Shown: in pieces, positions 11,222-20,320 of the stretch
Numbering within the stretch: the first letter of the stretch is position 1
Layout: each line of letters opens with the position of its first letter
Source of the DNA: Candidatus Hydrogenedentota bacterium
Lineage (GTDB): Bacteria > Hydrogenedentota > Hydrogenedentia > Hydrogenedentales > JAEUWI01
Assembly: GCA_016791475.1 (NCBI GenBank)
Contig: JAEUWI010000013.1
Coordinates: forward strand, 11,029-75,028
Reading direction: 5' to 3'
DNA length: 64,000 nucleotides
Program-made: the position numbers and the translations under genes
Notes under the pieces: generated by a model
Told to the model about the DNA's origin: nothing
What the model saw: only the letters and a program-made list of their open reading frames with translations
The model's database searches: none

Positions 11222-11509
11222 GGCCCGTAATCCTCCCGACCCATAGTGGACCTACCGGGGCCGCCCCGACAGGCAGGCCTGGCGCATCGGTCTCGCGTCA
11301 GGCTCCGGTCGAAGGACCGGATCACTCCAAGTATACCAGAGGTCCAGACCAAATGCAGGGGCCTCCCGCGATCGGCGGAGGCCACCCTGCGACGTTGTTC
11401 CAAGTCCCTGAGACTAAAGCTTTTCCCCGGAACTCGGGTGAACGTCCGATCCCTGTTAATGGCGGGCGCTCACGGCCCGGTAACCAGGAAGGATGGGAGG
11501 CCAGTCAAT
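11222..11509. other. Divergent intergenic region ahead of the virion cluster
   Basis: These 288 bp separate the leftward receiver from the rightward portal gene and must hold promoters for both. I see no convincing -35/-10 pair, repeat or attachment site. A GGGAGG ribosome-binding site at 11495-11500 sets the portal start. Confidence 0.4.
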
Positions 11510-12757
11510 ATGGGTCGATGGAATCAATGGTTTGGAATTCACCGGCGGCGCGTCGAGAAGCCCGCTCCGCAAGCACCAGCGGGTCTCTTTAAGACCGTCA
11601 GCCGATCGGCGGATCCGGGTGGATTGGGTGCGCACCTCGGCGGCTATCTCGGCTTGCCCGGCGAAACCCCCTTCGCCATGTTGCAAGTCTATCGATTTCT
11701 CCGCGACGCCATCCCCGATATTTCCGATGCGATCTGGACCTGGAAGCGCCTTTGCCAGACCGGATGGGACGTGGACTATCTTCACACCAGTTCGGAGGCC
11801 GCGCGCACCCGCGCGCAGCGACTCATCGCGGAACTCGACGCCCGCGTAAACAGCGGCGATCGCGGCATGGAGGGCCTGCTCGACATCTTCTACACCTCCC
11901 TCTTCACCTATGGTGCCGCCGCCGTGGAGATTGTACTCTCCCAGAGCCGCGAGTCCGTGTTCGACGTCGTACCCGTCGACGTCTGGACCCTCCGCTTCAC
12001 CCGCGAAGGCGGAAGGCTTCAGGCATGGCAAGTCCTCGACGGGAAAGCCGTCAAGCTGCCCATGGACCGTTTCATCTATGTGGGCATGGACCGCGAAGGC
12101 ACCAACCCCTATGGCCGCTCCATGCTGCGCTCCATTCCCTTCGTCGTTAAGATTCAGCAGCGCCTGATCGAGGATATGGCCAAGGCCACCCACAACGCGG
12201 GCTGGAGCAAGCTCCACGTGCAGTATGCCGGTGAAGACCGCGCGCGCGGCGAAAGCGTTGAAGCCTTCCAGGAACGCATGCGCGCCAACCTGAATTCCCT
12301 CCGCGACAAGCTCGCGGGCATCGAAGCCGACCAGAATCTCGTCACCTACGACAACGTGAAGATTTCCATGCTGCGCGGCGATCAGCATGCCCAGGTTTTC
12401 TATGACAACCACAAGGCCATCGAAGAACAGGTCATCACCGGCATGCATCTCATGCCCATCCTGCTGGGGCGCAACTACGGCACCACCGAAACCTACGGCA
12501 CCGCCCAGTTCGAGATCATCAACAGGCAGGTCGAAGGCGTCAATCGCAGCGTCCAGAAACTTCTCGAGCGACTCTACAACTTCGAGCTCGCCCTCATGTG
12601 GGGCGAAGCCACCGCCAAAGTCAACATGCGCACCAACCGCACCGTGGACGTACTCAAAGAAGCCCAGGCCCGCGAAAAGGAAATCGGCAACGTGCTCCGC
12701 TTGAAAGAAGCAGGCCTGCTGGACGACGAGCAAGTAAGAGCGGCGTTGAGCAGGTAA
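11510..12757 (+). CDS. Phage portal-like protein (DUF935/Mu gp29-type)
   Basis: This 415-aa protein begins MGRWNQWFGIHRRR. It has a portal-type core: an alpha-helical stem start (MLQVYRFLRDAIPDISDAIW), a DVVPVDVWTLRF strand, the FIYVGMDREGTNPYGRSML stretch and a long helical C-terminus. Portals form the dodecameric ring through which DNA enters the capsid. ATG 11510 is chosen for its GGGAGG site; the frame stays open to 11246. It is the first gene of the cluster, and no terminase gene is recognised in the 11 kb upstream. Its stop codon abuts a perfect 34-bp inverted-repeat arm. Confidence 0.8.
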   Translation: MGRWNQWFGIHRRRVEKPAPQAPAGLFKTVSRSADPGGLGAHLGGYLGLPGETPFAMLQVYRFLRDAIPDISDAIWTWKRLCQTGWDVDYLHTSSEAARTRAQRLIAELDARVNSGDRGMEGLLDIFYTSLFTYGAAAVEIVLSQSRESVFDVVPVDVWTLRFTREGGRLQAWQVLDGKAVKLPMDRFIYVGMDREGTNPYGRSMLRSIPFVVKIQQRLIEDMAKATHNAGWSKLHVQYAGEDRARGESVEAFQERMRANLNSLRDKLAGIEADQNLVTYDNVKISMLRGDQHAQVFYDNHKAIEEQVITGMHLMPILLGRNYGTTETYGTAQFEIINRQVEGVNRSVQKLLERLYNFELALMWGEATAKVNMRTNRTVDVLKEAQAREKEIGNVLRLKEAGLLDDEQVRAALSR

Positions 12758-13015
12758 TCCGCCGAAGGCGGAACAGTTGACAGTTGACAGCTGCGCGCAC
12801 CTCGCTAGTTCTCTCCGTCTATATTTTCGTTTACCTCCGATTCCATACGACCCATACGACCCATACGACCCATACGACCCATACGACCCATAAGACCCAT
12901 AAGACCCATAAGACCCATCCGTCCCACAAGACCCACAACCCATCGCCACCAACCTGGAGCACCCCCATGTCCTCTTCCCCGCTGTCAACTGTCAACTGTT
13001 CCGCCTTCGGCGGAT
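12757..13015. repeat. Composite repeat: 34-bp inverted arms around a 9-bp tandem array
   Basis: Positions 12757-12790 and 12982-13015 are perfect 34-bp inverted copies. Each contains a TCCGCC...GGCGGA hairpin and 7-bp CAGTTGA units. Between them, 12847-12936 holds about ten nonamers: five ACGACCCAT, three AAGACCCAT and two variants. The left arm begins on the last base of the portal stop codon. The right arm lies inside the annotated start of the protease gene. A third half-copy of the arm is at 27829-27855. Confidence 0.95.
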
Positions 13016-13716
13016 CAACTGCCCTCGAGCCCTTCATCTTCCGCCAGGCGGGCCGTCTAGTCGCCATCCGCGCGGCGCAGGCCGTCGAAAACTCCGACGA
13101 CCGCGACGCCGCCGTCAACCGCTATGCGCTCCGCGCCCTCGCGCCGGAAGAATACGCGGCTTTCACCCTCGATCTCTGCAACAACCAGATCGACCGCCAC
13201 TTCAGCCGCTTCCCCGAAGAAGAGCTGGAGCGCATCAATGAACTCGTGCCGGGACGACCCCTCATGGAGCGCCACGACCTCCGCGGCACCCTCCCGCGCG
13301 GGCGCTTCTTCCGCTCCTCGTTGCATCGTGAGGGCGAGGTCGTTTCCGTGCGCCCCGAGGTCTACGTGCTCCGCACCGCGGACAATCAGGACTTCATTCT
13401 GAACATCGAAGGCGGCGTCTACCGCGAGACTTCCATCGGCTTTTCTTTCCGCATGCCCGAGTGCTCGGTCTGCGGCAAAGACTTGCGCACCTGCGATCAC
13501 GTGCCCGGTAGAACCTACGGCGACCAAGCCTGTCACTTCATCATGCACGGTGTGCTCGAAGTCGCCGAAGGCTCCGTCGTGTCCTCCGGTTCCCAGGGCA
13601 CCGGCTTCGTCCGCGAAGGCCGCGATGCCCCGCTGGTCGAAGCGCTCGAAGCGGCGCGGGAAAGCTTTCACCAGCCCATCGAACTCGAAAGCAAAAAGCT
13701 TTGGGCGCAAGAGTAG
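12967..13716 (+). CDS. Prohead protease-like protein (S78-type) with Cys-rich insertion
   Basis: This protein is 249 aa from the ATG at 12967 (CTGGAGC upstream). The core DLCNNQIDRHFSRF ... GRPLMERHDL and YRETSIGFSF matches capsid maturation proteases. His103 and Ser156 sit in the positions of the catalytic His and Ser. CSVCGKDLRTCDH at 166-178 is a Cys/His cluster seen in some phage proteases. It would cleave scaffold or capsid during head assembly. Residues 6-17 are encoded by an inverted-repeat arm, so the native N-terminus may have been altered. The frame upstream to 12784 reads through the tandem repeats and is unlikely to be translated. Confidence 0.75.
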   Translation: MSSSPLSTVNCSAFGGSTALEPFIFRQAGRLVAIRAAQAVENSDDRDAAVNRYALRALAPEEYAAFTLDLCNNQIDRHFSRFPEEELERINELVPGRPLMERHDLRGTLPRGRFFRSSLHREGEVVSVRPEVYVLRTADNQDFILNIEGGVYRETSIGFSFRMPECSVCGKDLRTCDHVPGRTYGDQACHFIMHGVLEVAEGSVVSSGSQGTGFVREGRDAPLVEALEAARESFHQPIELESKKLWAQE

Positions 13717-13824
13717 CGCCGTCCCTTCGTAGCGCGCACGCTCTCGACTCGCCTCGGCGCATTTACTCCATCCACCCTGTCCACTACGTACATTCGCTGC
13801 GGCGAATCTATAAGGATCTTTCCC

Positions 13825-14019
13825 ATGGAAAAACCAATCTGCGGATGCCCCTATGAGCCGCTGCACGCCGTACAAATGAGCAACGTGCGGGAAGACATCC
13901 GCGAAGTCAAAGAGCGCGTCGGCAGTCTGGAGACGACCCTCGCGCGGGGTGTGCTCCTGCTCGTGGCCAATCTCATCGGCGTAAGCATTACCCTCGCGCA
14001 ACAATTGCTCGCGCGATAA
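13825..14019 (+). CDS. Small XhlA/hemolysin-like phage membrane protein
   Basis: This 64-aa protein has a helical segment NVREDIREVKERVGSLETTL followed by one transmembrane helix (LLLVANLIGVSITLAQQLL). This is the layout of XhlA-type proteins, which accompany holins in lysis cassettes and membrane anchoring. AAGGA lies 14 bp before the ATG. A CxC pair sits at the N-terminus. It lies between the protease and a DNA-end-processing-like gene and is probably co-transcribed with them. The call rests on layout rather than on strong sequence identity. Confidence 0.55.
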   Translation: MEKPICGCPYEPLHAVQMSNVREDIREVKERVGSLETTLARGVLLLVANLIGVSITLAQQLLAR

Positions 14020-14036
14020 CAACAGAAAGGACCGCC

Positions 14037-14747
14037 ATGCTGTATCGATTGACGAGTGAAACCATCGTGGAGAATCCCCTGCCGCCGGGAGAAGACGCGC
14101 GGCGCTTCGTGCTTCATCGACACCGCGACGGCGAAGGGGCCCACCTCGATCTGCGCCTGGAGCAGGAGGGTTACCTGATGGGCTTTCGCGTCGATGGCGT
14201 CACCCTCGGCCCCGAAAGCTGGGCCACCGTGAAAGCGCCCCACCCGCTCCACTGGCTCACGCAAAACGGCGAGGCCGTGCGCGAAGACGGCGGCACCTAT
14301 TACTGGGAGCGGGGCGATGCTTCCAGCGGTGGCGTCCTCGTGCTCAGCGGCCAGCGCAAGTCGTTGCGCGTAACCGTAGAGCCCGTGGGTGGCGCAAGCG
14401 CCGGGGCCCTTGGGGCACTGCGGGCTGCGGCGGAAAAACTGAACGTGGCCCTGGGGGAACTGGCGGGCCTCGCCGAAGACGGGCGCGCCGCGCGGGATCG
14501 CGCCATCGCGCGCTACTGCGGTCTCGGCCGCGAGCTTGACGGCGGCAGCTTTGACGATGCCTGGTGGCGCGCCATGCTCGCGGGCCAGCGACTGCACGTG
14601 ATCCAGCAGCACCTCCACGGACTGGAAGTGCGCTTCGACAAAAAATATCCGCCCTTGCCCGTTTCAGTGCCGGTGGCGCTCGAAGACGAAGGCGAACTCG
14701 CCGGGGTGGGCGGCGCCGAGCGCGCTATGGGGATTCTCTGGGGCTGA
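14037..14747 (+). CDS. LigD 3'-phosphoesterase (PE)-domain-like protein within the virion cluster
   Basis: This protein is 236 aa. Residues 23-73 reproduce the PE-domain core of bacterial NHEJ ligase D: RRFVLHRH (His29), AHLDLRLE (His36, Asp38, Arg40) and APHPLHWL (His69). They match in order and approximate spacing the catalytic His, HxDxR and His of LigD-PE. A GTYYWERGD...GVLVLSGQRK section resembles the rest of that beta-barrel. LigD-PE removes 3'-phosphates and ribonucleotides from DNA ends. The C-terminal 120 residues are helical and unassigned. The gene is 17 bp after the XhlA-like gene and 140 bp before the decoration gene. Fold and residues are seen; activity and purpose in a capsid operon are inference. 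Confidence 0.65.
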   Translation: MLYRLTSETIVENPLPPGEDARRFVLHRHRDGEGAHLDLRLEQEGYLMGFRVDGVTLGPESWATVKAPHPLHWLTQNGEAVREDGGTYYWERGDASSGGVLVLSGQRKSLRVTVEPVGGASAGALGALRAAAEKLNVALGELAGLAEDGRAARDRAIARYCGLGRELDGGSFDDAWWRAMLAGQRLHVIQQHLHGLEVRFDKKYPPLPVSVPVALEDEGELAGVGGAERAMGILWG

Positions 14748-14753
14748 GATTCA

Positions 14754-14830
14754 CCGAAATAGGACGGATAAGACCGATAGGACGGATTTGATCAAATCGG
14801 TCCTATCCGCCCCATCCGTCCTATCGGTCA
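14754..14830. repeat. Nonamer repeat forming an imperfect hairpin
   Basis: Left arm units TAGGACGGA, TAAGACCGA, TAGGACGGA (14760-14786) are followed by a palindromic centre TTTGATCAAA. The right arm has TCGGTCCTA, TCCGCCCCA, TCCGTCCTA. The arms pair over about 35 bp with some mismatches. It lies between the PE-like stop and the decoration-protein start, whose AAGGAGG site follows. Confidence 0.9.
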
Positions 14831-14887
14831 CACATTCCGGGGCAACTGCCCCAACCAAAACACACAACCCAAAAAGGAGGCAACATC

Positions 14888-15268
14888 ATGGCATTTGGCG
14901 ATACCGGCGGAGCCGTAACCGAACTCATCATCACCTGTCGCACCCCCGCGGTCGGCGGCGTGGCGATCGCAAAGGGCGACGCGGTGAAACTCACGGGGGC
15001 CTACACCATCACCAACGCGACCGACGCCGAAGACGCGGTCTTCGGCCAGGCGATGCAGGCGGCCACAGCGAACGACGTGGGCATCCCCATCAAGGTGCGG
15101 GGCATCTGCATCTTCAAGTACACCGGCACCGCGCCCACCGTGGACGGCGTCAAAGGCGTCACCGCTTCGGCCACCGACGGCTCCGTGAAAACGCCCGCCT
15201 CGGGCAACGGCAAAGGCATCAACGTGAAGGTGGACGCCACCGCGACGCAGGTCCACGTGCTGCTCTAG
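14888..15268 (+). CDS. Capsid decoration protein-like (DUF2190-type)
   Basis: This 126-aa, Ala/Thr/Gly-rich, beta-predicted protein (VAIAKGDAVKLTGAYTITNA, DAVFGQAMQAATANDVGIPI) follows the pattern of DUF2190/head-decoration proteins. It is encoded immediately before the major capsid gene, as is usual. Trimers of such proteins stabilise capsid surfaces. A strong AAAGGAGG lies 8-9 bp before the ATG. The assignment is supported by position as much as by sequence. Confidence 0.65.
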   Translation: MAFGDTGGAVTELIITCRTPAVGGVAIAKGDAVKLTGAYTITNATDAEDAVFGQAMQAATANDVGIPIKVRGICIFKYTGTAPTVDGVKGVTASATDGSVKTPASGNGKGINVKVDATATQVHVLL

Positions 15269-15283
15269 CAGGAATGGCGAACA

Positions 15284-15305
15284 GTGAATTGTGAAATGTG
15301 AATTG
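15284..15305. repeat. Heptamer tandem repeat before the capsid gene
   Basis: GTGAATT, GTGAAAT, GTGAATT and a further G sit at exact 7-bp spacing, ending 20 bp before the major capsid start. The GGGAG ribosome-binding site lies between. Confidence 0.75.
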
Positions 15306-15325
15306 AAACCAGGGAGAAAATACAC

Positions 15326-16372
15326 ATGGCCTATCAGGACACCCAGATGAAAGAGCAGATCCGTTTCCTCGCCCAGGCGCCCGACGCGCTGCGCCAGGTG
15401 CGGGGTCAGGGGCTCTACGAAACCCTCAACAACCTGGGGCTCACGCACCAGCATTATTTCCGCGCGCTCGACACCAACGTGCAGGACTACTGCGCGCAGG
15501 AGTTCGGCATTGACGTCAATCGGATCACGGTGGACCGCTTCTTTCAGTCCGACCCGAACGCGAAGTGGCTCTTCCCCGATATCGTGCGCGAAGCGGTGAT
15601 GACGGGCCTGCGCCGCAAGCCGGTGTACCCCGATCTCATCATGCACGACGAGCACATCGAAGGCACGGCCTACGACGTGCCCTATGTCACCGAAAGCGCG
15701 GAGAATGAAGAACTCCGCAGCGTGGCGGAGGGCGCGGTAATCCCGGAATCGTCGCTCACCTACGGCGATCGCATCGTGAAGCTCGACAAGAAAGGCCGGG
15801 GCGTCCTTGCGTCCTACGAGGCGGTGCGCCGCATGAGCGTGGACATGCTCCGCGTGCATCTCCAGCGCATCGGCGAGCGCCTGGGCCGCAGCCTCGACGC
15901 GCGCCTGGCCCACGTGCTGGCCAATGGCGACTCATCCGGCTCGGGCACGGCGCCCGTGTCCATGAACACGGCCACCGCCGACACGTGGACCTATGGCGAT
16001 CTGATCGCCCTCTACATGAAGCTGAGCCAGGAGCATTACTTCACGCCGACCCACGTGCTCGCGGACACCGCCACGGCCCAGGCGATCCTGAAGTTCGCGG
16101 AGATTGCCGACAGCAATCTCTTCGACTTCGCCAAGACCGGCAAGCTGCCCACGCCCCTCGGTGTGCGCCTCGTGCCCCTGGCGGATCAGCCCGCGAACAA
16201 GATCACCATGCTCGACGCGGGCTTCGCCGTGCAGAAGCTCACCGAACAGGATCTCCTCGTGGAGTCAGACAAGCTTACCAGCCAGCAGTGGGACCGCACC
16301 TATCTCACCGTGGTGACGGACTTCGCCATCACCTATGAGAAGGCCCGCGTGGTGATGACCAGCGACTGGTAA
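15326..16372 (+). CDS. Major capsid protein-like
   Basis: This 348-aa protein is the best candidate for the capsid subunit. It has a helical N-terminus, a central segment with YDVPYVTESAENEELRSVAEGAVIPESSL (an E-loop/P-domain-like stretch), a long helix with RRMSVDMLRVHLQRIGERLG, and an A-domain-like C-terminus ending VVTDFAITYEKARVVM. Order after a decoration protein and before a connector supports an HK97-fold shell protein. The N-terminal 100 residues may act as a scaffolding region cleaved by the upstream protease. No phage lineage can be named. Confidence 0.75.
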   Translation: MAYQDTQMKEQIRFLAQAPDALRQVRGQGLYETLNNLGLTHQHYFRALDTNVQDYCAQEFGIDVNRITVDRFFQSDPNAKWLFPDIVREAVMTGLRRKPVYPDLIMHDEHIEGTAYDVPYVTESAENEELRSVAEGAVIPESSLTYGDRIVKLDKKGRGVLASYEAVRRMSVDMLRVHLQRIGERLGRSLDARLAHVLANGDSSGSGTAPVSMNTATADTWTYGDLIALYMKLSQEHYFTPTHVLADTATAQAILKFAEIADSNLFDFAKTGKLPTPLGVRLVPLADQPANKITMLDAGFAVQKLTEQDLLVESDKLTSQQWDRTYLTVVTDFAITYEKARVVMTSDW

Positions 16373-16379
16373 GTCGCGA

Positions 16380-16410
16380 GCCGCGGGGAGGCAAGGTGCC
16401 TCTCCGCGGC
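16380..16410 (+). terminator. GC-rich hairpin after the capsid gene (possible attenuator)
   Basis: A 14-bp stem with one mismatch (16380-16393 with 16397-16410) and an AGG loop starts 8 bp past the capsid stop. There is no T-run, so it may lower downstream expression or protect the capsid mRNA end rather than terminate. Confidence 0.6.
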
Positions 16411-16421
16411 GCAACTGAAAA

Positions 16422-16448
16422 TCGGTCCTATCCGTCCTATCGGTCCCA
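16422..16448. repeat. Three-unit nonamer array in a 5' leader
   Basis: TCGGTCCTA, TCCGTCCTA and TCGGTCCCA lie 20 bp ahead of the connector ATG, with AAGGAG in between. They are the reverse-orientation variant of the TAGGACGGA repeats at 14.76 kb. Confidence 0.88.
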
Positions 16449-16467
16449 CCACAAGGAGCAAACAACC

Positions 16468-16881
16468 ATGGCAAATTTCACAACCGAAGCAAAGGTGCGG
16501 CTTGCCGCACAAATCGACGACACGGCCATCGCCAGTACGGCCCTGATCGAAGCGAGCATCACCGAAGCCCACGAAGCGGTTCTGAGCGATTTGGACGATA
16601 CCATCGATCCGGAGGGTCCGCCCGACGCCCTTGTGCAGGGCGAGACCCTTCTTGCCGTATCAATCCTCCTGCGCGCCCTCGCTTCGCGCGATGCGGTGGA
16701 GCAGGTCGAGCTGCAAATCGGAGGCCAGCGCATCGGCGCGGGGCAACGCTTCGCATCGCTGATGACGGTGGCGCGGCAATTCGAGAAAGAAGGAGCCCGT
16801 ACTTTGGGCCCGTTCGCCGGGAAGCCCGCTGTCCTGCCGCCGGCCGACCTCACGGCAACCACGCCCGTGCTCGGCGTTTAG
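16468..16881 (+). CDS. Head-tail connector/adaptor-like protein
   Basis: This 137-aa, mostly helical protein begins MANFTTEAKVRLAAQIDD and contains ALIEASITEAHEAVLSDLDD and ETLLAVSILLRALASRDAVEQ. Size, helical content and position directly after the capsid gene fit the gp6/DUF1320-type adaptors that extend the portal ring. ATG 16468 has AAGGAG upstream; the frame runs back through the repeat to 16396. The name is by position and composition. Confidence 0.5.
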   Translation: MANFTTEAKVRLAAQIDDTAIASTALIEASITEAHEAVLSDLDDTIDPEGPPDALVQGETLLAVSILLRALASRDAVEQVELQIGGQRIGAGQRFASLMTVARQFEKEGARTLGPFAGKPAVLPPADLTATTPVLGV

Positions 16882-16912
16882 CGATAAATTCAAACGAAAG
16901 GGAGCAAGTCCT

Positions 16913-17596
16913 ATGGCGATCAGCGTAGGAAGCCAGGTCTTCGACGCCGCGACGACCGTGGCGCGGGAGGAATACGAGATAGTCGGCGGAAAGCAGTCTC
17001 GGGCCATACGGATCACCGGGGTGGTGCGCGGTAGCTCCAGTCTGGCGGAGCTGATCGAGACCCTGGACTCGATAGCCCGGTCCGCCTCGGAAACGGTGCC
17101 AGCCGAGGTATCTCTGCGCGAAGGCCGACGGCTCTTCGCGCGACGGGAGGCGTTTTCCCGGGAGCTGAGTCTCCGTTCACGCGTGGGCTGCTTCGTGCTC
17201 GATCTCCGCGCGGACGATGCGTGGGAGGAGTCCGCGGTCCTCCACGAGTCATCTTGGGAAATCGGCTTCTCGGGCGCCACGGTCGATCTATCCAACAGCG
17301 GCAACGTCGCGACCATGCCGGTGGTCACGTTGACGGCGGAAAGTGATCTGGAGCTGCCGACGCTTGGCGATGGCACGCGAGCGCTGACCTATCAGGGCAC
17401 GGTGCCCGGCGGCGCGAGCCTCCTGTTCGACGCCGCAACACGCCGCGTCCTGCTGGACGGTACGGACGTGACGCCCTACACCACCGGGGACTTTCCCCAG
17501 TTGGCGCCTGGAAACAACACGCTGGAATACACGGGCGATCCGAGTGGCGGCCACTTCGCCAGTGCGGTCGTTGCCTTTCGTGATCGGTGGTGGTGA
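16913..17596 (+). CDS. Distal-tail (Dit)-like protein
   Basis: This protein is 227 aa. The N-terminal half is predicted beta/alpha (YEIVGGKQSRAIRITGVVRG). The C-terminal section ends with a phage distal-tail galectin-like motif, LAPGNNTLEYTGDPSGGHFA followed by FRDRWW, typical of Dit proteins of siphophages. Dit forms the hexameric hub at the tail tip. The hub/nuclease gene begins three bases after the stop. No tail-tube or tape-measure gene lies between the connector and Dit, which is unusual for a long-tailed phage. Confidence 0.65.
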   Translation: MAISVGSQVFDAATTVAREEYEIVGGKQSRAIRITGVVRGSSSLAELIETLDSIARSASETVPAEVSLREGRRLFARREAFSRELSLRSRVGCFVLDLRADDAWEESAVLHESSWEIGFSGATVDLSNSGNVATMPVVTLTAESDLELPTLGDGTRALTYQGTVPGGASLLFDAATRRVLLDGTDVTPYTTGDFPQLAPGNNTLEYTGDPSGGHFASAVVAFRDRWW

Positions 17597-17598
17597 CG

Positions 17599-19338
17599 AT
17601 GCGGTACAGCGTAGAGATTTTCGATCGCGCCGGGCTGCGCGTGGGTAGTTTTGACCAAGTCCCGCTCCTCGAAATCGAGCGCAACGGGCCGGACGGCGTG
17701 GACCGTATCGAAGGGCTGCTGCCCCTTTCCCTCGACCGCTTCGGCGTGGGCTACACGGTTCAGGTTTCACTGGATGGCGTGCTTGGGGTTTCGGCACGGG
17801 TCGTGGAGTCGCGCCCGGCCTGGGGCGACACCCGGCGGCTCATCCTGGATCGGTATGTGGATTTTCAGGAATTGCTGGCCTTCGTGGCCGAGCGGGATCG
17901 AAGCGAGGAAAACCGGCGCGTCGCCCGGAGTTACAAGAATCAGCGCGTGGACGTCATGGTGCGCGACGTGCTCAACAGCACACTGGGTCCAGTGCGCTAT
18001 TCGGTGGCCCACGAGGGTTACCCCGATGGCGCGGAGCGTGAATATGGCAAGTTCGCCGCGCGCCGTGCCTGGACCGATGCGCTGGAGGTCGGCGGGATCA
18101 CCACGGGTCAGTGGGTGGATGCCGGCCGCATCGATCTGACCGGTGCGGAAGCTAAGGATGGCGATACCATCTCCGGGCTGGTGGTCGACGGCGTGGCCTG
18201 GCCCGATCTCCGCCTGATGATGATCGACTGTGAAGAAACGAGCCTGAACAGTCACGCGATAAAGCGCCACCCGGAGATCGCGGCGTGGACCTCGGACCAG
18301 TACGACCGGAGCGCCTACAAGCGCCGTGCCGACGATGCGAAGGCGCGCCTGCAGAACCTGCTGGACACGCGAGGCATCGACTATATCGAACTCAATCCCC
18401 ATCAGGATGCGAGCGGGGCCTTCGACGACCGCGTGGACGCTTACGGGCGCTACCTCGGGCTGGTTTATGGCGACGGACAGTGCTTCAACGCCGCGATGGT
18501 GGAAGAGGGCCATGCGGACGTGTATCTCTATGACGACGGCCGCTACCACGTTCCGGAAATGGCGCTGAAAGACTTCTACGCCTATGTCGGCCCCCATCAG
18601 GAATCGGTGGAGCCCTGCTCCACACTCGTGGGCGCCTTTGAGGCGCGGGGCGGCGCGCTCGAAGTATTGACGGCCCTCGCGGCGCTCGGTGGCGGTTATG
18701 TTTTTCGCCTGGATACGTTGGGCGTGGTCCACTTCCGGCGCGGCGATCGTGTGGACCAGGTGGTCACCCTCGATCCCGTGCGCACCGGCGTGGAGCTGGG
18801 TCATGATTTGCGCGGGCTGGTCAACCTCCTGCGCATTCAGGGCGACCCCATGCATGGCGGCGTGGATGGATACCACGCTGAGGACGACAGCATCGATGCG
18901 TTCGGTACGCATTTTCGTTACTTCGCTTACTTCGCTCTGAGCCAGGCGGATGACGCGGAACGACTGGCCGATGGGCTGCTGCGCGATCTCGCCTGGCCGG
19001 CGCGCGCGGGCAGGGCCGTCTTCCACCGGGGTGTGGCCGCGATTGATGTGGGTGCCTTGCTGGAATTTCGCGGTCCGGCCCTTGTGGAGCGGGACGCGCC
19101 CCTGACCGGTGTGTGGGGTGAAGCGCTGGGCGAGCGCCTCGTGGGCCGGGTGAACCGCGTGGTGCACCGGATTGCCGGAGAAAGCGTGGAGACCCGTCTC
19201 GATTTAACCTCACCCTTCCGCTCGGTGGCGAACCCGCTGAGCTTTATCACCCGCAGCCAGGACAGCCTATCGGCCTTCTTTCAGTTTCGCCTGGACGACG
19301 CGTCGATTGGCATGGACACGGGATTTCATCTCGACTAG
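17599..19338 (+). CDS. Tail hub protein with embedded staphylococcal-nuclease domain
   Basis: This protein is 579 aa from ATG 17599 (a GTG at 17587 is also possible). Residues 1-180 and about 345-579 look like a gp27/XkdQ-type tail hub or baseplate protein. Residues 185-315 form a thermonuclease (SNase) domain with the conserved set present: DGDTI (Asp189), RLMMIDCEE (Arg205, Asp210, Glu213) and DAYGRYLGLVY (Arg284), then NAAMVEEGHADVY. These match SNase Asp21, Arg35, Asp40, Glu43 and Arg87. SNases cut DNA and RNA with Ca2+. A nuclease at the tail tip could act on target-cell nucleic acid; that role is inferred. Confidence 0.82.
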   Translation: MRYSVEIFDRAGLRVGSFDQVPLLEIERNGPDGVDRIEGLLPLSLDRFGVGYTVQVSLDGVLGVSARVVESRPAWGDTRRLILDRYVDFQELLAFVAERDRSEENRRVARSYKNQRVDVMVRDVLNSTLGPVRYSVAHEGYPDGAEREYGKFAARRAWTDALEVGGITTGQWVDAGRIDLTGAEAKDGDTISGLVVDGVAWPDLRLMMIDCEETSLNSHAIKRHPEIAAWTSDQYDRSAYKRRADDAKARLQNLLDTRGIDYIELNPHQDASGAFDDRVDAYGRYLGLVYGDGQCFNAAMVEEGHADVYLYDDGRYHVPEMALKDFYAYVGPHQESVEPCSTLVGAFEARGGALEVLTALAALGGGYVFRLDTLGVVHFRRGDRVDQVVTLDPVRTGVELGHDLRGLVNLLRIQGDPMHGGVDGYHAEDDSIDAFGTHFRYFAYFALSQADDAERLADGLLRDLAWPARAGRAVFHRGVAAIDVGALLEFRGPALVERDAPLTGVWGEALGERLVGRVNRVVHRIAGESVETRLDLTSPFRSVANPLSFITRSQDSLSAFFQFRLDDASIGMDTGFHLD

Positions 19339-19352
19339 CAAAGGAGTGGCAC

Positions 19353-19874
19353 ATGGCCATCAAAGGGCTTTCCTACAACAAGACGATCTGGGCTTTCGAA
19401 GAACGCCCGGTTTCCAGCGCGAAGCTCAATCAGTGGGACGACCGTATCGAAGGCGCGCTCGAGGCGGCCTTTCTTTTGCTTAACCATGCATGGGGCGGGG
19501 GGGATGGTGTGCTGCACGGCCTGGGCAGCGGGGAACTCGCTGTGACTGCGACCTCGCCGCTGAGCCTTCGGGTGAGCGTGGGCACGGGCTACGCATTTAT
19601 CGACAGTAACCTTTTTCGATTGAAGGTAACGACCCAAACGCCCGATGTCGTGCCGCCCCTGAGCGACGGGCGTATCGACCTCGTGCAGGCCAATCTGGCC
19701 ACGTGGAGCATTTCGGTCAAAACCGGCGCCGAAGCGGCCAGCCCCTTGGCTCCGACGGCCGACGACGGGGCGATCCCCCTGGCCCGGCTGATGCTGCGTC
19801 CGGGAATGACCTCGATCAAGGACACCGACGATGCCGTGAACGGCTACGTGGTGGATGTGCGGAGTTTTCTCTGA
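19353..19874 (+). CDS. Baseplate/tail-appendage protein
   Basis: This protein is 173 aa. A helical N-terminus (SAKLNQWDDRIEGALEAAFLLLN) leads to a beta-rich part (GVLHGLGSGELAVTATSPLSLRVSVGTGYAFIDSNLFRL). This resembles N-terminal domains of upper baseplate or tail-fibre proteins that attach appendages to the tail tip. It starts 15 bp after the hub gene with AAAGGAG upstream. No receptor-binding domain is obvious, so another fibre subunit may be encoded elsewhere or the structure is reduced. Confidence 0.55.
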   Translation: MAIKGLSYNKTIWAFEERPVSSAKLNQWDDRIEGALEAAFLLLNHAWGGGDGVLHGLGSGELAVTATSPLSLRVSVGTGYAFIDSNLFRLKVTTQTPDVVPPLSDGRIDLVQANLATWSISVKTGAEAASPLAPTADDGAIPLARLMLRPGMTSIKDTDDAVNGYVVDVRSFL

Positions 19875-19880
19875 GTTGAT

Positions 19881-19935
19881 CAGACCAATCAGACGGATCC
19901 GACCGATCTGAGAACGTCCGGATTGGTCCGAACAG
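19881..19935. repeat. Nonamer-type repeat with weak hairpin
   Basis: CAGACCAAT, CAGACGGAT and CCGACCGAT run at 9-bp spacing, followed by a partial inverted copy (GATTGGTC). The element lies between the appendage stop and the leader of the last cluster gene. Confidence 0.75.
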
Positions 19936-19972
19936 ACTGTTCTCGTAAACCCAAAAACCAAGGAGGCAAAAA

Positions 19973-20320
19973 ATGGATATCGATCTGGGCATCACGCTGT
20001 TGGGCAGTGCGGTGGGCGCGGTGTGGGCGGGCTTCAAGTCGAGCGACGAGTATCAGCGCGTCCAGCGCCTGCGCTTTCGCAAGGCCCTGCTCGCGCTGGA
20101 AAGCGGCGTGGAGCGGACCTACCAGGCCTACGTGAAAGCGATCAAGGCCGGGCGCGCCGATGGCCGCCTGACGGAAGACGAAAAGGCGCGGGCACGATCC
20201 CTGGCGCGGACCCGGGCCATCGCCCTGGCGAAGGAGGCCGGGGTCGACTTGCTGCGCACCATCGGCGAAGACTACGTGGACGTGTGGATCGCGAAACTGG
20301 TGCAGAAGCGCAAGGGGTAG
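19973..20320 (+). CDS. Small cluster-terminal protein, holin-like
   Basis: This protein is 115 aa. A hydrophobic N-terminal segment (ITLLGSAVGAVWAGF) is followed by a charged helical region (RKALLALESGVERTYQAYVKA) and EAGVDLLRTIGEDYVDVWIAKLV. One membrane segment plus a basic amphipathic tail and the last position in a virion operon suggest a holin or membrane-anchoring protein. No endolysin gene is visible. AAGGAGG precedes the ATG. The function is a guess from layout. Confidence 0.4.
   Translation: MDIDLGITLLGSAVGAVWAGFKSSDEYQRVQRLRFRKALLALESGVERTYQAYVKAIKAGRADGRLTEDEKARARSLARTRAIALAKEAGVDLLRTIGEDYVDVWIAKLVQKRKG

Follow-up and report, generated by a model that had tools for sequence, protein, structure and literature searches.

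A capsid gene cluster of Hydrogenedentota that resembles a gene transfer agent and encodes a LigD phosphoesterase-like protein

The genetic basis is known for few gene transfer agents (GTAs). A single, conserved terminase gene (TerL) lying apart from the structural genes was counted as support for the GTA of Brachyspira (PMC9662315), and a 2026 paper described GTA particles in Faecalibacterium, encoded by a cluster with the order TerL-portal-scaffold-capsid (PMC12946183). The closest described relatives of the protein considered here are the 3′-phosphoesterase (PE) domain of DNA ligase D (LigD) and its archaeal counterparts. Within the PE domain of Pae LigD, His42, His48 and Asp50 are metal (Mn) ligands and Arg52 and His84 are phosphate ligands; Tyr88 contacts the phosphate and is essential, while Arg14, Glu21 and Glu82 are required for 3′-phosphatase activity and dispensable for ribonucleoside removal (PMC8656161).

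Here we analysed a stretch of 64,000 nucleotides (the window; its contig is C13 of a 7.7 Mb genome) in which a PE-like protein is encoded among phage-like head genes. The cluster looks like a domesticated, undescribed GTA-like viriform of the phylum Hydrogenedentota. A literature search, conducted largely without subscription journals, found no published report of a GTA-like element in this phylum.

The gene cluster and its PE-tail protein

Eleven co-directional genes occupy positions 11246-20320 (Table 1), flanked by host genes encoding a PD40 repeat protein, a response regulator and a DJ-1/PfpI protein. The fourth encodes the PE-tail protein, and its ATG start is preceded by a Shine-Dalgarno-like sequence (AGAAAGGA). 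An earlier note on this DNA had placed the gene between those for the protease and the decoration protein; these flanks are right, but the gene for a 64-aa membrane protein, which the note did not mention, also intervenes.

Table 1. Genes of the capsid cluster in the window.
Product	Position	Strand	Remarks
Mu-type portal protein	11246..12757	+	likely true start ATG 11510
Prohead (S78-like) serine protease	12784..13716	+	likely true start ATG 12967
64-aa protein, coiled coil and one membrane helix	13825..14019	+	holin/XhlA-like, weak PHROG match (E 0.01)
PE-tail protein, 236 aa	14037..14747	+	H29, H36, D38, R40, H69, W73
Cement/decoration protein	14888..15268	+	
HK97-type major capsid protein (MCP)	15326..16372	+	
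Conserved small protein, head-tail connector position	16468..16881	+	function inferred from place only
Distal tail (Dit)-like protein	16913..17596	+	
Tail protein with inserted staphylococcal-nuclease (SNase) domain	17587..19338	+	
Tail/baseplate-associated protein	19353..19874	+	weak PHROG matches
115-aa protein, hydrophobic N-terminus, holin-like	19973..20320	+	weak PHROG holin match of f6 homologue (E 0.017)

The protease has the conserved residues H164 (ERHD) and S217 (ETSIGF) and lacks the C-terminal tail that is present in its phage homologues. At the portal/protease junction (12843-12935), a 9-bp repeat (CCATACGAC) is present in about ten copies, and because of this array the protease ORF is considered falsely extended upstream. 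The SNase domain residues R209, D214, E217 and R288, equivalent by position to R35, D40, E43 and R87 of the S. aureus enzyme, are conserved in nearly all homologues; the catalytic residues are degenerate in G007 (D to N/E) and in G067. The 115-aa holin-like protein is kept where tail genes are lost.

Two further genes accompany the cluster elsewhere in the phylum. Several genera (L050, L053, L061, L064, L065) carry a gene for a secreted-looking protein (APRYLEELRIGGGYG) inserted between the protease and 64-aa membrane protein genes. A conserved protein of about 150 aa adjoins the last cluster gene at L055:10915-11367, L071:10537-10995 and 12 other loci. Its motifs (S-x-H, GGIAVD and DGHVHAD) look by eye like those of an M15 peptidase (endolysin), an identity that rests on the motifs and was not confirmed by Pfam, PHROGs or PDB searches.

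The PE-tail protein consists of an N-terminal LigD-PE-like beta-barrel (approximately residues 1-117) and a C-terminal helical domain (approximately 118-215). The earlier note had recognized the catalytic constellation of LigD PE in His29, His36-x-Asp38-x-Arg40 and His69. All are found at exactly these positions, and all are invariant in an alignment of 40 phylum-wide homologues reaching down to 27% identity, so the lack of conservation that the note had named as grounds for refutation is not seen. Only 18 columns of this alignment are invariant, and the five active-site residues are among them. H29, H36 and D38 match the metal ligands His42, His48 and Asp50 of Pae LigD, while R40 and H69 match the phosphate ligands Arg52 and His84.

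Searches with the single sequence gave sub-threshold matches to one family throughout (Pfam LigD_N, E 0.025; TIGR02777, E 0.016). LigD_N was matched at E<=0.1 by 25 of the 40 homologues (best 8e-6), with the window protein below the Pfam gathering score. A profile of the 40 homologues (A2) was more sensitive, matching the PDB entries 3p43 (E 1.3e-7) and 3p4h (E 3.1e-6); together with 5dmp, 2lj6 and 3n9b these are its five best matches, and all are LigD or archaeal PE. AlphaFold2 predicted a beta-barrel from the homologue alignment (pLDDT 91.6, compared to 37.6 from the single sequence). The top seven Foldseek hits of this model in the PDB were likewise all LigD or archaeal PE (probability 1.00, E 4e-4 to 6e-3), upholding the proposed fold. 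TM-scores to the PE structures were moderate (0.40-0.60 of target), as would be expected of remote kin. A likeness to CYTH (triphosphate-tunnel) proteins in Foldseek (E ~0.01) was dropped, since sequence profiles yield PE only.

Sequence and fold therefore place the N-terminal half in the LigD 3′-phosphoesterase superfamily, as a divergent member. It is not filed as a canonical LigD PE because the position of the phosphate-contacting Tyr88 is occupied by W73 (Trp in 38/43). Counterparts of Arg14, Glu21 and Glu82 are not evident among the first 22 residues or two positions before H69, with the N-terminus being disordered in known structures. Phosphomonoesterase activity may therefore be weak, and phosphodiesterase or ribonuclease activity more likely. 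The protein stands alone, with no linked ligase or polymerase domains, unlike whole DNA ligase D.

The C-terminal half stands outside the PE fold and is helical in the AlphaFold2 model (helices 122-134, 139-171, 174-182 and 186-203), as the earlier note had said in calling it new to the fold; its source, however, is recognizable. In related phages the prohead protease is longer, and its tail, beyond the protease domain, resembles this half of the PE-tail protein. Alignment of the C-terminal half with 63 such phage protease tails by hhalign gave P 3.8e-6 (Prob 87%, 72 columns), compared to P of at least 0.013 for unrelated families and P 0.69 when the PE half was aligned with those tails. Furthermore, in two genomes (G007 and G008) the protease and the tail form a single direct fusion, with neither the PE half nor the gene for the membrane protein present. 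The MCP tree groups both genomes with G009, a PE carrier, and thus loss of PE by a single deletion is the simplest account. Taken together, these sequence comparisons identify the C-terminal half as a descendant of the scaffold-like tail of a phage prohead protease, now detached; by analogy, we propose that it functions as a scaffold.

Distribution, inheritance and viral relatives

The sample comprised 68 Hydrogenedentota genomes, 38 of them good. PE was found in 55 genomes (34 of the good ones) and MCP in 52 (34 good), with full-length MCP matches being 59-84% identical; RecA, searched by the same method for comparison, was found in 57 (34 good). PE and MCP are nearly always present in one copy. 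Gene order is kept across 43 genomes or regions, and no conserved integration or replication gene was found in the 43 cluster neighbourhoods. In 318 genomes from outside the phylum, PE was matched weakly twice, one match falling within an ORF of 775 aa that probably encodes LigD.

TerL was found in 57 genomes (37 good), with extra or split copies in some. It lies at G000:C9:63854-65296 (minus strand; L207), contains Walker A, Walker B and nuclease motifs, and matches PHROGs at E 5.8e-22. It is mostly located on another contig than the cluster, while in G003 it is found approximately 1 kb downstream. A search with Terminase_6N (PF03237) alone had suggested that TerL was absent; this was wrong, as profiles built from related phages and then from the phylum found it. 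This unlinked, phylum-conserved TerL is the likely packaging motor.

The MCP tree required six label changes for seven host families, which is the minimum and an exact match; the PE tree required seven. Distances of PE and protease correlated significantly with those of RecA (rho 0.34-0.35), whereas no significant correlation was detected for MCP and portal. The case for vertical descent thus rests on the family clades and presence rates, since the RecA correlation holds for PE and protease only. Two genomes (G046 and G047) have the cluster divided between two distant loci.

The tail genes are more variable. The SNase-tail gene was detected in 37 of the 68 genomes; in family f6 and much of f3 none was detected alongside the genes for capsid, PE and TerL, nor was Dit in f6. 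Loci L070-L072, L055, L059 and L068 combine portal, protease, PE, cement, capsid and TerL with neither a Dit nor an SNase-tail gene, and could possibly specify tail-less particles.

The nearest phage capsids are approximately 30% identical and come from gut contigs and from Enterococcus phage fHoEfm07. The earlier note had advised looking for the same gene in other phage clusters; among 80 related IMG/VR capsid contigs the PE domain was found in none, and neither were the SNase-tail or membrane protein genes. Phage and viral collections searched with the protein alone gave no match, and BFVD gave no convincing one. The sole viral PE match, L111, belongs to another phage, which has ligase/primase and PE genes of its own. 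There (L111:2726-10414; IMG/VR 3300022701_000257), a 2273-aa ligase/primase-like polyprotein is followed by a separate PE gene, with a portal-like gene upstream, an arrangement in which LigD modules appear distributed across a phage genome. Many of the IMG/VR relatives (L121-L200) are contigs of approximately 10 kb with the order TerL-portal-protease-MCP, some from isolate genomes; these may be additional GTA-like elements, perhaps related to that of Faecalibacterium.

The GTA-like classification follows from the chromosomal, vertically inherited structural genes, the presence of portal and TerL, and the lack of conserved replication or integration genes. The observation of an end-healing fold among capsid genes stands, while the capsid operon of the earlier note is not that of an ordinary phage and instead appears to be a GTA-like cluster passed on vertically throughout the phylum. 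Being about as universal as RecA, such a capsid system would represent a major new example of virus domestication in a phylum that is mostly uncultured.

Proposed end healing and alternative roles of the PE domain

We favour a model, which we judge about evenly balanced between right and wrong, in which the PE-tail protein of the GTA-like viriform heals the 3′ ends of packaged DNA inside the procapsid. TerL would package chromosomal fragments into procapsids, and the tail domain would bring PE into the procapsid, replacing the ancestral protease tail. There, PE would turn damaged or non-ligatable 3′ ends (3′-phosphate or 3′-ribonucleotide) of the packaged linear DNA into 3′-OH, and the healed fragment would then be fit for recombination or joining in the recipient. 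If this is true, an end-repair enzyme within the head-assembly machinery would give such particles a novel role, in that they would ready DNA ends beyond carrying them. The wider proposal, that an ancient phylum-wide GTA encapsidates an end-healing enzyme through a protease-derived domain and transfers DNA with repaired 3′ ends, is offered more tentatively, as somewhat more likely wrong than right. Points against the model are the several lineages with capsid and TerL genes but no detected tail proteins through which to deliver DNA, the Trp at the position of Tyr88, the lack of evident counterparts of Arg14, Glu21 and Glu82, the dispensability of PE in three genomes, and a significant RecA-distance correlation confined to PE and protease.

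SNase-type nucleases generate 3′-phosphate ends, and PE could instead be the partner of the tail-protein SNase, which would cut while PE removed the resulting 3′-phosphates, for example during entry or in readying incoming DNA. The SNase domain, with its conserved catalytic residues, is encoded in the same operon and was detected in over half of the genomes, both DNA enzymes are additions to the structural genes, and both are damaged in G030, where the PE residues are lost and the tail gene is split in two. Intact PE nevertheless persists with no detected SNase-tail gene in f6 and most of f3, and SNase is found without PE in G008. Strict coupling is thereby rejected, and a partnership cannot be the sole reason for PE; as the main role of PE we consider it unlikely.

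The fusion of PE to a tail that belongs to the protease in phages and in G007 and G008 argues for a procapsid location. Maturation proteases usually remove scaffold-like domains, and so PE might be expelled or cleaved and find its substrates in the producing cell, either RNA or chromosome ends that are damaged or were cut by terminase, with the tail merely a detached scaffold. Such a role would also suit the ability of LigD PE to resect ribonucleotides (PMC8656161). However, a genuine LigD PE scored above the cut-off in only 2 of the 68 genomes, so there is mostly no LigD pathway to serve, and activity in the producing cell rather than in the particle appears distinctly unlikely.

If the PE fold had been exapted as a purely structural part of the procapsid, it would need no catalysis. 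Its gene does sit among head genes, fused to a scaffold-like tail, and both the Tyr88 to Trp replacement and the apparent lack of the 3′-phosphatase residues are in keeping with such a role. Selection and natural variants point the other way. The PE half is under purifying selection, with dN/dS of 0.07-0.24 where dS is unsaturated (many pairs are near saturation), and its values are at or below those of the tail half in most pairs. The active-site residues are among the best-conserved positions, and in G030 (L073) all five were lost jointly (H29D, H36A, D38T, R40E and H69R) with the tail intact. The SNase-tail gene of this genome lies in two pieces on another contig (G030:C201), and here the system may be in decay. 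PE is dispensable in G007, G008 and G030. The first two deleted the domain yet kept the tail, whereas a structural role would predict the reverse. If PE is an enzyme that can be spared and the tail a structural domain that cannot, losses are expected to take the active site or the domain as a whole and leave the tail in place, as they do here. These patterns favour PE as an enzyme, and a purely structural PE seems quite improbable.

Finally, an ordinary prophage in which the enzyme gene is an accessory is highly improbable: phage relatives exist for all the main structural genes, but the cluster is phylum-wide, mostly single copy and congruent with host families, has no conserved integrase or replication neighbours, is split between two loci in G046 and G047, and has its TerL usually on another contig. 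Returning to end healing inside the procapsid, the natural PE deletions and the dead version of the enzyme make this idea testable.

Comparison with known systems

The PE-tail protein shares the beta-barrel and the metal and phosphate residues of LigD PE (Pseudomonas aeruginosa 3N9B) and archaeal PE (3P43, 3P4H and 5DMP). It differs from them in having one more residue between the first two histidines, in the Trp in place of Tyr88, and in lacking evident equivalents of Arg14, Glu21 and Glu82. Unlike LigD, it is joined to a phage protease tail rather than to polymerase and ligase domains, and its gene resides in a capsid cluster.

In the protease-scaffold proteins of tailed phages (P2 gpO type) and the head maturation protease of fHoEfm07, a C-terminal tail follows the protease, as it does in G007 and G008. 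By contrast, the tail of the PE-tail protein is detached from the protease and has a PE domain in its stead.

Among GTAs, FpGTA of Faecalibacterium (PMC12946183), compared here by its description, also has a small cluster, comprising TerL, portal, scaffold and capsid, and the nearest capsid relatives of the Hydrogenedentota cluster are partly gut contigs of approximately 10 kb; the FpGTA TerL is linked, however, and no PE is mentioned (PMC12946183). Brachyspira BhGTA, Rhodobacter RcGTA and Bartonella BaGTA are likewise compact chromosomal structural clusters that co-diversify with their hosts, and BhGTA, like the Hydrogenedentota system, has a single-copy TerL outside the cluster (PMC9662315). 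Compared to these three, the Hydrogenedentota cluster, described here from its genes, is distinguished by its phylum-wide distribution and by its PE and SNase enzymes.
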